Below are positions 44,213 through 48,072 of a stretch of 64,000 nucleotides of DNA, piece after piece (position 1 is the first letter of the stretch; each line of letters begins with the position of its first letter). Under the pieces are notes generated by a model that did not search any database, had not been told where the DNA came from, and saw only the letters and a program-made list of their open reading frames with translations. Source of the DNA: Planctomycetota bacterium (GTDB lineage: Bacteria; Planctomycetota; Phycisphaerae; UBA1845; UTPLA1); the NCBI GenBank assembly GCA_003576905.1, contig QEVG01000010.1:1-64000 (forward strand), read 5' to 3'. The translations under genes were made by a program, and so were the position numbers.

Positions 44213-44347
44213 GACCGTACCTCCCGATTGCCATGTGGAATCATAAGGGCTTGCCGCACAATCGCTATCTGTCCGATTGGGATCATTGAAGCCGGGGCCT
44301 AGAATCGGGAGCTGCGGGAAAACCCGCCGGTGGCAGGACGCGAATCC

Positions 44348-45133
44348 ATGCTGAACTGGCTCAAAAAATGGCTGAGTTCGACGAGACTGAATGAGCAGCC
44401 CGGATCTCAGACATCTTTCCGTGCCGAGTGGACGAAGATTCTAGTTCGCCGGGTGGCACCCTATGCGCGGCTCCCTGCGGAGCATCGGCGGACGCTTCAC
44501 AGGCTTATCGAGCGCTTCATCGAAGAAAAGACATTCTGGGGTGCCGAGGGCTTAGAAGTCACCGATGAAATGCGCCTGCTGGTCGCCGCGCAGGCATGCC
44601 TGCTCATTCTGCATCTCCCGGAGTTCTGGGTCTATCCAAAGACGAAAGAGATCATCTTGTATCCCCAGGATTTCGGAGAGGTCGTTGAAACGATCGGCCC
44701 CGACGGGCGGCGTTACGACGTGCGTGACGACAAGATCGGCGAAACCTGGAATCGCGGTCCGGTGCTGCTCTCCTGGAGCGTCGTGCGGAATTCTGGTTGG
44801 ATCGATGCGCGAGGGCACAATGTGGTCTACCACGAGTTTGCGCACGCTCTCGATTGGCTCGACGGCGTCGCGGACGGTACGCCGCCGCTTGGCGACAAAT
44901 CCAGATACGAGGTATGGCGCCGCGTCATGACATCCGAGTACAAGAGCCTCGTATTTGCCGATCGAAACGGTCGCCGCGCGTTTCTCGACACGTACGGCGC
45001 CTCGAACCCTGCCGAGTTCTTTGCGGTTGCGACCGAGCAATTTTTCGAAGCCGGGGCCAGATTCCGGCGCATCCACCCGGCGCTGTATGCGCAACTTCGA
45101 GGTTTCTACAAACACGATCCTGCCAACTGGTGA
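44348..45133 (+). CDS. mtfA: MtfA-like zinc peptidase
   Basis: This 261-residue protein matches the M90/MtfA family. The zinc site HEFAHALD (about 162-169) and the distal glutamate segment PAEFFAVATEQFFE are present, along with the N-terminal WTKILVRRVAPYARLP region and WVYPKTKEIILYP. E. coli MtfA (YeeI) binds the Mlc repressor and alters glucose uptake control, and has aminopeptidase activity. No Mlc or ptsG homologue is in view here. An earlier GTG at 44330 would add six residues. Confidence 0.88.
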   Translation: MLNWLKKWLSSTRLNEQPGSQTSFRAEWTKILVRRVAPYARLPAEHRRTLHRLIERFIEEKTFWGAEGLEVTDEMRLLVAAQACLLILHLPEFWVYPKTKEIILYPQDFGEVVETIGPDGRRYDVRDDKIGETWNRGPVLLSWSVVRNSGWIDARGHNVVYHEFAHALDWLDGVADGTPPLGDKSRYEVWRRVMTSEYKSLVFADRNGRRAFLDTYGASNPAEFFAVATEQFFEAGARFRRIHPALYAQLRGFYKHDPANW

Positions 45134-45226: not shown

Positions 45227-45259
45227 AAAAAAATAGGACTGGTAGGTGATACCAGTCCT
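45227..45259 (-). terminator. Intrinsic terminator of the sRNA (and of the ntrC-type operon)
   Basis: A perfect ten-pair stem AGGACTGGTA/TACCAGTCCT (45259-45250 with 45244-45235 on the minus strand) with a five-base loop is followed after one A by seven U. Confidence 0.9.
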
Positions 45260-45313
45260 AGGTCCCTACCTCTCGGGCCGGAGAGTAGAGAAAGGAGGCT
45301 CTCTAGTGGGACC
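45227..45313 (-). ncRNA. Candidate small RNA with three-way junction and anti-SD loop
   Basis: A promoter, a fold and a terminator line up to define an RNA of about 87 nt. The start (G at 45313) lies seven bases past the TAAAAT box. P1 pairs GGUCCC (45313-45308) with GGGACC (45266-45261). P2 pairs UAGAG (45305-45301) with CUCUA (45290-45286) around the loop AGCCUCCUUU. P3 pairs CUCUC (45285-45281) with GAGAG (45274-45270) around CGGCCC. A ten-pair terminator hairpin and U7 end it. The P2 loop and stem contain CCUCCUUUCU, the same as the anti-Shine-Dalgarno tail of 16S rRNA, so it could pair with ribosome-binding sites. It could instead be processed from the ntrC transcript. Confidence 0.6.
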
Positions 45314-45319
45314 GTTAGA

Positions 45320-45347
45320 ATTTTAGGGCCCCGGGAATGGATTTCAA
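45320..45347 (-). promoter_or_regulatory. Sigma-70 promoter of the candidate sRNA
   Basis: TTGAAA (45347-45342), a 16-base spacer and TAAAAT (45325-45320) each match the consensus at five of six positions. The predicted start at 45313 is the first base of P1 of the RNA fold. Confidence 0.65.
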
Positions 45348-45505: not shown

Positions 45506-46894
45506 TCAAGAGTCCTCGGAAGCCCGGCGCCGTTTGCCCAGGCCGTATCGCTCCATCCGGTACTTAAACTGATCCCGCGACATGCGAAGGAGCTTTGCCG
45601 CGTTGCTTTGATTGTCGCCCGCCAAGACCAAGGCCTGCCGAACGAGCTGCTCCTCGATTTCGGTCAGACTGATTCCCTCAGGGGGGAGCTTGATTGCCGG
45701 ACCGGTTTCGGCGGCCGTCTCTCCGCGACCGAGCACGAAGTCGTCCACTCCGATTTCGTGGTGCTTGCAGAGCAGGACGGCCCTTTCGCAGACATTCCTC
45801 AACTCCCGCACGTTTCCGGGCCACGCATACTGAGTGAGCTTCCGGATCGCGTCCGAATGAATCCCCCGGATGTCCCGGCGAAACTCCTTGCTGAATGCCT
45901 GCACGAAGTGCTCTGCAATCAGCTTGATGTCCTTTCCGCGCTCGCGTAGCGGAGGCAGTTCGATCGGGATGATGTTGAGGCGATAGTAGAGATCCTCACG
46001 GAATTTGCCTTCTTCGATCAGCTTGTTCACGTCGCGATTCGTTGCGCCGATGATCCGGACGTCCACCTCGATGTCGCGCACCCCGCCGACCCGCCGGAAT
46101 GTCTTCTCTTCGAGGAACCGAAGGAGCTTCGCCTGAAGCTGGGGCGGCATGTCGCCGACCTCGTCAAGGAAGACCGTCCCCCCTTCGGCAAGCTCGAGCA
46201 GGCCCTTTTTCATCTGGCGCGCGTCGGTGAAGGCGCCCCGCTCGTGACCGAAGAGCTCGCTTTCCAGAAGGGTTTCGGAGATGGCCGTGCAGGTGATGTT
46301 CATGAAGGGACGATTGGCGCGATCCGAATTGTAGTGAATGGTCTTGGCGACCAGGTCCTTGCCGGTTCCGCTTTCGCCGCGTAGGAAAACCGTGGACGCG
46401 CCACTGGCCGCGACGTCGCTGATCATCTGAAACAGCTTTTGCATGGCCGTGCACTGGCCGAGAATCCGGTCGAAGCCGTAATCCTTTTTCATCTGGGACC
46501 GCAGGTCGCGCAGCTCGCGTTTGAGTTGCGTCGTCTGGAGCGCCTTGGATACGGTCAAGACGATCGCGTCCATCTGAAATGGCTTGCTGACGTAGTCGTA
46601 GGCCCCGAGCTTCATTGCCTGAACGGCGGACTCAACGCTGCTGTAGGCCGTCATCATCAGAACCACGACGTCCTGATCCTGCTCCCGAATGGTTTGAAGC
46701 ACTTCCAGGCCGGTCTTGTCGGGGAGCTTGTAGTCAAGCATGACAAGGTCGCACGTGATCGACGACCATTTCTCAAGGCCCTCGGCGGCCGTCTCCGCCT
46801 CTTCGACGAGATAGCCCTCGTCCTGAAGCCGCTGCCTGAGCGACCAGCGGATCAGCTTCTCGTCTTCAATGATCAGGATGCGTGCTTTGCTCAT
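45506..46894 (-). CDS. NtrC-family sigma-54-dependent response regulator
   Basis: This 462-residue activator has a receiver domain with Asp54 (LVMLDYKLPD), a sigma-54 AAA+ domain and a Fis-type helix-turn-helix (SNAAKLLRMSRDQFKYRMERYGL). The AAA+ part has Walker A GESGTGKD (173-180) and Walker B VFLDE (241-245). The sigma-54 contact loop reads GAFTDA at 220-225 instead of GAFTGA, a variant that occurs in some members of the family. Its ATG overlaps the stop of the globin kinase gene (ATGA), so the two form a cognate pair. The likely target is the sigma-54 promoter at 48528-48543, on the other side of the kinase gene. Confidence 0.94.
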   Translation of the reverse strand: MSKARILIIEDEKLIRWSLRQRLQDEGYLVEEAETAAEGLEKWSSITCDLVMLDYKLPDKTGLEVLQTIREQDQDVVVLMMTAYSSVESAVQAMKLGAYDYVSKPFQMDAIVLTVSKALQTTQLKRELRDLRSQMKKDYGFDRILGQCTAMQKLFQMISDVAASGASTVFLRGESGTGKDLVAKTIHYNSDRANRPFMNITCTAISETLLESELFGHERGAFTDARQMKKGLLELAEGGTVFLDEVGDMPPQLQAKLLRFLEEKTFRRVGGVRDIEVDVRIIGATNRDVNKLIEEGKFREDLYYRLNIIPIELPPLRERGKDIKLIAEHFVQAFSKEFRRDIRGIHSDAIRKLTQYAWPGNVRELRNVCERAVLLCKHHEIGVDDFVLGRGETAAETGPAIKLPPEGISLTEIEEQLVRQALVLAGDNQSNAAKLLRMSRDQFKYRMERYGLGKRRRASEDS

Positions 46895-48072
46895 GCGGCT
46901 CTCGGCAACTCGACAATGACTCGCGTACCCCGGCCGGGAACGCTTTGTATCTCGATCCTCCCATTGTGAACTTCCACGATTCGCCGGCAAATCGCAAGCC
47001 CAAGCCCCGTGCCCCGGGCCTTGGTCGTGAAGAAAGGCTCAAAAACACGCGTGAGAACGTCCGGCCGGATGCCGCAGCCGGTGTCCTCCACGACGAGCCG
47101 GACGGAATCAGATACCGACTCAATTCGACACTCAATCTCGCCTCCCTCCTCACACGCGTGCGCGGCATTGATCATCAGATTGACAATCACCTGTTTGACC
47201 TGTGCGCCGTCCACGTGGACCCAGTGCGGCATCGTAATGCCCTCGCAGCGGACGCGAAGCCCGCGAAACGCCGGCTCCTGGCGCAGCAAGATGAGCGCGT
47301 GGGCGAGGATCTGCCCCAGGTCTTCGCGCTGAAGGGCGGGCTGCTGTGGCCGCGCATACAGAAGCAAATCGCGCACGGCGGCGTCGAGGCGGTCTATCTG
47401 TCGAAGGGCCTCCGCGATGATCTCCTTGTGGGCATGACCGTCCTCCATTTCCGCGCCGAGGACCTGGATCGCACCGCTGATACCAGCCAGGGGGTTCTTG
47501 ATCTCGTGGGCCAGGGATGCCGCAAGCTGGCCGATGGTGGCCAGATGTTCAGACTCGCTGATCCTTTGCTCGAATTGCACGCGTTCGGCCGCCTGGATGC
47601 GGTCGACATAGTCCTCTCGATAGGTGTCGTTCATGATCGCGAGTTCGATGTCGAGAAGCTTGTGCAGGGCGCCCAATACCTGCATCTCGTTTTCGAGGCC
47701 GAACCCGCGAATCACCCGGACCAGGCTGAGCCGGATGTAGCTCATGGCCGTGAACATATAATGCTGGGGCAAATCTACCCGGACATGAGTGCGACCGATC
47801 CTCGCCCGCGTCTCATAGTACGCGAAGTCGTAGCACCCGCAGAAAAGCTGCTCGAGCCATTCGAGCAAAAAGACGCGCAGGCGGGCCAGCCTCCCAGGCC
47901 CCTCAAGCAATACGTTTCGTGTCCCCTGGTTCTTCAGCAACTGGTCATAAAAGCCAACGACGATGTCGGAGAGAACCGGAGTAATCTGACTCTTGACGGA
48001 TTTGAGGGCAGCGGCATCGGCCTCGGAGAACCCCACGAACGCTTTCATCTCCGAAAAGAGCGCCTCGGCCAT
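46891..48072 (-). CDS. Globin-coupled sensor histidine kinase
   Basis: This 393-residue kinase has no membrane segment. Residues 1-150 look like a sensor globin or protoglobin: FVGFSEADAAALKSV, then LSDIVVGFYDQLL, LEWLEQLFCGCYDFAYYETRARIGRTHVRVDLP. His96 in IGRTHVRVDL is the expected heme ligand. A short linker leads to a NtrB-like kinase with phospho-acceptor His189 (SLAHEIKNPLAGISGA), N box NLMINAAHACEEGG and G box ARGTGLGLAIC. It should sense oxygen, NO or CO in the cytoplasm. The frame is open 173 codons further upstream, but the ATG at 48072 sits directly before the globin and six bases after a TATAAT box. Confidence 0.85.
   Translation of the reverse strand: MAEALFSEMKAFVGFSEADAAALKSVKSQITPVLSDIVVGFYDQLLKNQGTRNVLLEGPGRLARLRVFLLEWLEQLFCGCYDFAYYETRARIGRTHVRVDLPQHYMFTAMSYIRLSLVRVIRGFGLENEMQVLGALHKLLDIELAIMNDTYREDYVDRIQAAERVQFEQRISESEHLATIGQLAASLAHEIKNPLAGISGAIQVLGAEMEDGHAHKEIIAEALRQIDRLDAAVRDLLLYARPQQPALQREDLGQILAHALILLRQEPAFRGLRVRCEGITMPHWVHVDGAQVKQVIVNLMINAAHACEEGGEIECRIESVSDSVRLVVEDTGCGIRPDVLTRVFEPFFTTKARGTGLGLAICRRIVEVHNGRIEIQSVPGRGTRVIVELPRAA

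Follow-up and report, generated by a model that had tools for sequence, protein, structure and literature searches.

A previously unlisted multi-copy family of small structured RNAs, most with an anti-Shine-Dalgarno-like loop, in Planctomycetota

The cuckoo RNAs are a multi-copy family of small RNAs (sRNAs) with anti-Shine-Dalgarno (anti-SD) loops, and RsaE/RoxS of the Firmicutes pairs with Shine-Dalgarno (SD) sites through C-rich single-stranded motifs. Here we describe an RNA element that also displays an anti-SD sequence and that lies on the minus strand (45227..45313) of a 64,000-nt stretch of DNA from a Planctomycetota bacterium (assembly GCA_003576905.1, contig QEVG01000010.1, positions 1 to 64,000), the whole of which we call the window. 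The element of 87 nt, in which a three-way junction of helices P1, P2 and P3 is followed by a terminator hairpin, is one member of a previously unlisted multi-copy small-RNA family (type I). In structure RsaE/RoxS is unlike it, and to our knowledge the cuckoo RNAs have no hairpin resembling P3, a sequence link to them having been looked for via Rfam only. Rfam holds models of RsaE and of ar14; the element matches nothing there at the gathering score, and neither does the locus of a second copy in the same assembly. With E allowed up to 10, the intergenic region matched only ncS54, at 14.6 bits against a cut-off of 43. As the element has no covariance-model match in Rfam, we rejected membership in RsaE/RoxS.

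The best functional analogue of the element is NfeR1/ar14 of the alphaproteobacteria, which the portions of the source used here describe as Hfq-independent, as using anti-SD loops carried by variable stems and as repressing ntrBC (PMC10746234). Both are families of hairpin RNAs with an ultraconserved, unpaired anti-SD motif, stems that differ in sequence and a promoter of the sigma-70 type, as far as those portions describe NfeR1/ar14 (PMC10746234), and the motif that NfeR1/ar14 holds in a hairpin loop has its counterpart here in CCUCCUUUCU, which spans P2 loop and stem. The same portions give ar14 three hairpins, each with CCUCCUCCC (PMC10746234), whereas our element has a single anti-SD loop, CCUCCUUUC, set in a three-way junction, carries a constant CGGCCC hairpin and comes from a different phylum. 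With one loop instead of three, another motif and no Rfam match at the gathering score, membership in ar14 was rejected. A further analogue is BbsR14 of Bartonella bacilliformis, for which the part of the source drawn on describes stem-loops that likewise display an anti-SD motif, TTCCTCCTAA, and makes no mention of a constant P3 (PMC7717549). The list of Weinberg (2010) includes a Rhodopirellula-1 motif from Proteobacteria and Planctomycetes (PMC2864571), and among the literature matches listed no trans-acting sRNA of Planctomycetes was described.

A search with the element found the second copy in its own assembly and many more in relatives, a multiplicity that the initial annotation of this DNA had not noticed. 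At E < 1e-4 there are 31 copies in 12 of the 17 genomes of the window's taxonomic family, one to five per genome: two in the window's own assembly (G000; other G labels denote relatives and L labels fetched loci), five each in G001 and G010, four in G007, three each in G014 and G015, two each in G006, G009 and G016, and one each in G002, G003 and G008. The covariance model R1 was built from alignment A2, restricted to nine class A copies because different registers of P2 are mixed in A1, the unprocessed MAFFT alignment, and R2 was built from alignment A5 (32 rows, 25 distinct, identical rows being counted once). In A5, which was made with the model and thus leans towards structure, 96.9% of the cells pair. 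Two-sided changes are seen throughout P1, at six of six pairs, and at two pairs of P2, and the whole structure holds 28 two-sided cells against 6.6 in shuffled alignments, none of 500 of which scored as high; when the pairing partner is shifted by 1–3 columns, the two-sided counts collapse. The covariation in P1 thus supports the three-way junction, and P2 is supported by L075, which has a wholly different ten-pair P2 stem. P3, whose letters ACUCUCCGGCCCGAGAG are almost invariant, is conserved more strongly than any other part of the family, and with so little variation its helix gains no support from covariation. The initial annotation had proposed that a covariance search in planctomycete genomes should reveal compensatory changes in P1–P3 around a conserved loop, and this was borne out in full for P1, at two pairs for P2 and in 27 of 32 loops, P3 hardly varying at all.

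In the window copy the three-way-junction core (45261..45313, minus strand; covariance model E 1.8e-18) starts at the predicted 5′-end, 45313. P1 is formed by GGUCCC (45308..45313) and GGGACC (45261..45266), and encloses the P2 hairpin UAGAGAG-CCUCCU-UUCUCUA (45286..45305) and the P3 hairpin CUCUC-CGGCCC-GAGAG (45270..45285). The best fold of the 87-nt RNA has six pairs in P1, seven in P2 and five in P3, as first annotated except that the five pairs then given for P2 are those of its conserved core. This fold (−40 kcal/mol) has a z of −4.87, with none of 200 shuffled sequences as good. The 53-nt junction without the terminator is unexceptional (z = −1.26; 22 of 200 shuffles as good), so much of the fold signal is supplied by the terminator. 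The latter is a hairpin of 11 pairs with the loop UCACC (45234..45260), one pair more than originally described, and runs into the annotated U7 tract (45227..45233). Reading of the 87-nt RNA showed no start codon (ATG, GTG or TTG), and it was on such reading alone that we rejected CsrA titration via GGA, coding for a peptide and a function as riboswitch.

The type I copies have the sequence features of independent transcription units. In the window, the annotated promoter-like sequence was confirmed: the −35 hexamer TTGAAA (45342..45347) and the −10 hexamer TAAAAT (45320..45325), 6 nt ahead of P1, are separated by N16 and together (45347-45320, minus strand) score 10 out of 12, and the 3 kb searched hold two promoter-like sites where 0.7 are expected. 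Among copies, 30 of the 32 rows of A5 were tested over 44 nt upstream (L043 and L048 were left out), and in all 30 the best sigma-70-like pair ends 6–10 nt ahead of the modelled start of P1. The mean score, out of a maximum of 12, is 8.27; control windows from the genomes average 4.44 and shuffled versions of the upstream sequence 5.56. The level p < 0.05 is reached by 23 of the 30 copies relative to the genomic windows and by 16 relative to the shuffles. Terminator-like sites in the same 3 kb are not above chance (one, against 2.9 expected in shuffles), and support for the window terminator therefore comes from other copies: a hairpin followed by a T tract was found in 25 of 31 (L043 left out) against 58 of 1091 control stretches, and in four more P1 runs straight into a U tract, a feature for which the controls were not scored. 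L036 and L048 have neither. In the orthologues L005 and L006 a hairpin with different letters stands, judged by eye, at the position of the terminator. Judged by sequence, then, the RNA has a promoter and a terminator of its own, as a trans-acting SD-blocking sRNA would, and with the covariation this supports the initial reading as far as a compact, conserved structured RNA that is probably transcribed independently. The limits of the unit are also visible in its conservation, the 87 nt being 100% identical to the window copy in G002, 95% in G001 and 86% in G010, with only 41–54% identity in the flanks compared and 41% between G000 and G002 in the 44 nt upstream.

The copies are dispersed, and the genes beside them mostly differ. 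In the window the upstream neighbor, outside the element, is a gene for an NtrC-type sigma-54 response regulator identified by Pfam (45506..46894, minus strand; the start codon is our choice), whose stop codon lies 192 nt before the predicted 5′-end, in agreement with the position first annotated. This spacing would suit a cis-acting element, either the 3′-end of the ntrC-like transcript or a leader or attenuator of the next gene, and a second, related type of RNA described below does stand ahead of a conserved gene in 11 of the 16 loci examined in family f8; in the member tested this gene encodes NAD synthase. We nevertheless consider a cis-acting role of type I unlikely, as its copies mostly have different neighbors and promoter-like pairs of their own ahead of P1, and as the next gene downstream in the window, encoding an MtfA-like M90 peptidase (44330..45133, plus strand), converges on the element. 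A similar M90 gene is kept beside the orthologous copies in G001, G002 and G010, hence in four genomes in all, and the sigma-54 regulator has a counterpart in G002 and is missing in G001 and G010. That several copies sit at unrelated sites could also indicate a dispersed mobile repeat without cellular function. Such a repeat is very improbable in view of the compensatory changes in P1, promoter-like and terminator-like sequences that differ from copy to copy, the M90 gene retained in four genomes, and the lack of a match to the element in phage and plasmid collections and to a 17-nt P3 pattern in viral contigs.

The proximity to an NtrC-like gene recalls the repression of ntrBC by NfeR1, reported in the portions of the source cited above (PMC10746234). 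NtrC-NtrB was tried as a target on this analogy and rejected, since the starts taken as real for the ntrC-like and kinase genes carry no SD sequence matching the loop, and since the regulator does not adjoin the copies in G001 and G010. The kinase gene (46891-48072, minus strand) adjoins that of the regulator and encodes a histidine kinase with an N-terminal protoglobin domain; the two probably form a haem-based gas-sensing sigma-54 two-component pair.

Beyond the taxonomic family we find no convincing member. Model R1, run over 150 relatives, gave matches in 20 genomes at E ≤ 1, and outside the family only G077 fell below 1e-3. G077, assigned to family f8, was dropped, its contig being 100% identical over 2901 nt to a contig of G007; this contig, which carries L015 and L043 in bins of different families (both loci are rows of A5), is probably misbinned. 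Model R2, run over 392 genomes of the phylum, matched 24 at E ≤ 0.1 with the window's own included; outside the family there were 23 among 391 other genomes of the phylum, of which G153 (1.7e-4, the best) and G503 (8.9e-4) were below 1e-3. Fourteen of these outside loci were fetched and 11 further sites were not, and we rejected the matches by eye: none had an anti-SD loop, 12 of the 14 had a P3-like core with 1–5 mismatches, and two had none. A 12-mer of P3 is commoner than its reverse over 114 genomes of the order. With complementary arms of at most 8 nt in the 30 loci fetched, we regard its sites, with the possible exception of L160, as matches that arose by chance or in coding sequence. 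Of 18 pattern stretches in named genome records, 12 are copies, all in metagenome-assembled genomes labelled Phycisphaerae, Phycisphaerales, Planctomycetaceae or planctomycete, and the other six showed no P1 or P2 on inspection.

A hallmark of most type I copies is the P2 loop. In the window the ten bases CCUCCUUUCU of P2 loop and stem (45289..45298, minus strand) are, as initially annotated, identical to the anti-SD tail of 16S ribosomal RNA, CACCUCCUUUCU, in all six relatives examined; a search for 16S in the window's own assembly gave no match. CCTCCTTTCT occurs once in the window, where 0.06 occurrences are expected. The loop is CCUCCUUUC in 14 of the 32 rows of A5, with the full CCUCCUUUCU in 11, and CUUCCUUUCC in 13; CUUCCUUUC, the one-base variant of CCUCCUUUC, accounts for these 13 rows, so that an anti-SD-like loop is kept in 27 of the 32 aligned copies. 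L037 has a further one-base variant, and the paralogues L046, L047 and L075, which escaped the initial annotation together with the constancy of P3, have other loops. L048 (G010:C15) has no P2, its P1 arms closing straight onto P3, and no terminator was found; it is perhaps a decayed or minimal form. It is the constant P3 hairpin rather than the anti-SD loop that defines the family.

We suggest as the most likely reading, at about even odds, that the type I RNAs would be Hfq-independent sRNAs that mask ribosome-binding sites, resembling NfeR1/ar14 in action but unrelated to it, and that the family may in this way switch off messenger RNAs (mRNAs). We infer expression, pairing, silencing and a role of P3 as follows. 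Each copy would be transcribed from its own housekeeping promoter, and the transcript would end at a terminator belonging to that copy or at P1 with the U tract after it. P1 would close the three-way junction, with P3 as its constant hairpin, and P2 would mostly display a pyrimidine loop complementary to purine-rich SD sites. This loop could pair in trans with the ribosome-binding sites of selected strong-SD mRNAs and block translation without Hfq, and P3 may bind a putative common partner, either a protein or, by loop-loop contact, a second RNA. Conservation of the anti-SD-like loop points to pairing with strong SD sites, and the NfeR1 precedent makes such a mechanism feasible without Hfq. 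Hfq (PF17209) was matched in none of the 11 genomes searched and in 5 of 14 control genomes, which is why we do not regard the RNAs as Hfq-dependent trans-acting sRNAs. SD-like matches of at least 5 bases precede 15 of 42 window genes by crude gene calls (7 in the control), so the effect of the loop could be selective. A model duplex of the loop with AAAGGAGGUG has −13.0 kcal/mol, near the −14.9 of the 16S tail, and class B loops keep a complementarity tolerant of G-U pairs (−10.2 kcal/mol).

Several observations weigh against the masking of ribosome-binding sites. The perfect 10-nt target GAAAGGAGGC is not enriched in six genomes (59 sites, where the reversed pattern has 61), and 12 of these are the family's own copies read on the antisense strand; seeds shorter than 10 nt are indistinguishable from ordinary SD sites. 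A plausible start, opening 60 codons, follows 3 of 25 fetched non-self sites and not the other 22, a count that has no usable control. The gain of loop-to-start duplex energy in the window is slight (−9.1 kcal/mol, against −7.9 for shuffled loops). In the second large loop class the sequence is CUUCCUUUCCUUU, yet its carrier G015 has an unchanged 16S tail; four of the 32 aligned copies (L046, L047, L048 and L075) have a different loop or no P2; and SD pairing makes no use of P3, which is more constant than any other part. Of the trans-acting silencer that the initial annotation had envisaged, the signs of an independent unit, the conserved loop and the parallel to NfeR1 stand, and an excess of perfect targets was not found. 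Two candidate targets that match the loop perfectly over 10 nt are predicted from sequence: GAAAGGAGGC stands 5 nt ahead of an ATG both in L112 (G000:C17:37559), where this start opens 79 codons, and in L116 (G014:C1:1285113), where it opens 498.

The main rival to masking is a decoy or docking role of P3. CsrB-type sponges titrate a protein, and in the same way the constant P3, perhaps together with the 16S-like loop, could titrate an RNA-binding or ribosome-maturation protein, the copies raising the dose and P2 pairing being secondary. An almost invariant P3, several copies per genome, copies that lack the anti-SD loop and the unenriched perfect targets are all what such a decoy would lead one to expect, as are the core letters of P3 in the second RNA type, where most of them lie unpaired in the large loop at the apex. 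A pure P3 decoy would have no need of the P2 loop that is conserved in 27 of 32 rows, and no partner protein is known, our search having covered Hfq only; we hold a decoy to be rather unlikely. Pairing of P3 with 16S was considered as well: five of the six 16S loci hold 8-nt pieces complementary to it, and L100 has overlapping 9-mers, flanks included. If the masking of ribosome-binding sites by these RNAs is true, it would represent a separate origin of silencing by anti-SD loops outside Proteobacteria and Firmicutes. With its strong covariation, clear gene boundaries and constant hairpin, the family offers a handle on RNA regulation in bacteria like these and on the question of which protein, if any, replaces Hfq.

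The same CUCUCCGGCCCGA loop recurs in a second architecture (type II), a long hairpin found in the window's genome and in two taxonomic families. Its core, CTCTCTCCGGCCCGA, was found at 37 sites, spread over 29 of 396 relatives, and the reversed pattern at a single one; 11 of the 29 genomes belong to the window's family (its own included, L282), 16 to family f8 and two to others. Most fetched sites have an outer stem, a bulge on the 5′ side and an inner stem capped by a large apical loop that contains the core. The bulge is missing from L261 and L268, the best folds of L269 and L276 differ, no enclosing arms were seen around the core in L255, L256 and L266, and G004 (L244) holds a variant with CTCCTCTCC. 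Counted with structures named after reading the sequences, covariation is strong: 10 of 17 pairs are two-sided in the 15 f8 rows (31 cells, against 10.5 in shuffles) and 11 of 22 in the eight f1 rows (26 cells, against 9.4); the number of further pair types is not above shuffles (311 of 500 as high in f8, 86 of 500 in f1). These alignments (A7 and A8) leave out L261, the first copy of L262, L268, the second copy of L212, L273, L274, L276 and L279, whose arms do not align.

A T tract follows 21 of 34 type II sites, three doubtful ones counted, against 4.4% of controls, and promoters were not clearly found in the 27 loci scored (mean 6.2 against 5.5). In the 11 f8 loci mentioned above the downstream co-directional gene belongs to one protein cluster, with its start 104–586 nt past the core in the four loci where it could be placed. 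The f8 hairpin is thus a possible unrecognised leader element of nadE, and type II might act in cis on nadE in that family and serve as an sRNA elsewhere. A tentative wider possibility, doubtful as it stands, is a modular Hfq-free system in which the constant CUCUCCGGCCCGA hairpin docks a lineage-specific chaperone or enters RNA-RNA kissing, the P2 seed loops, mostly anti-SD, are exchangeable, and the module is reused in the long-hairpin RNA of two families, in one of them upstream of nadE. Within the f8 set (L257-L272 and L212), four loci, L257, L262, L270 and L212, have a second core close to the first.
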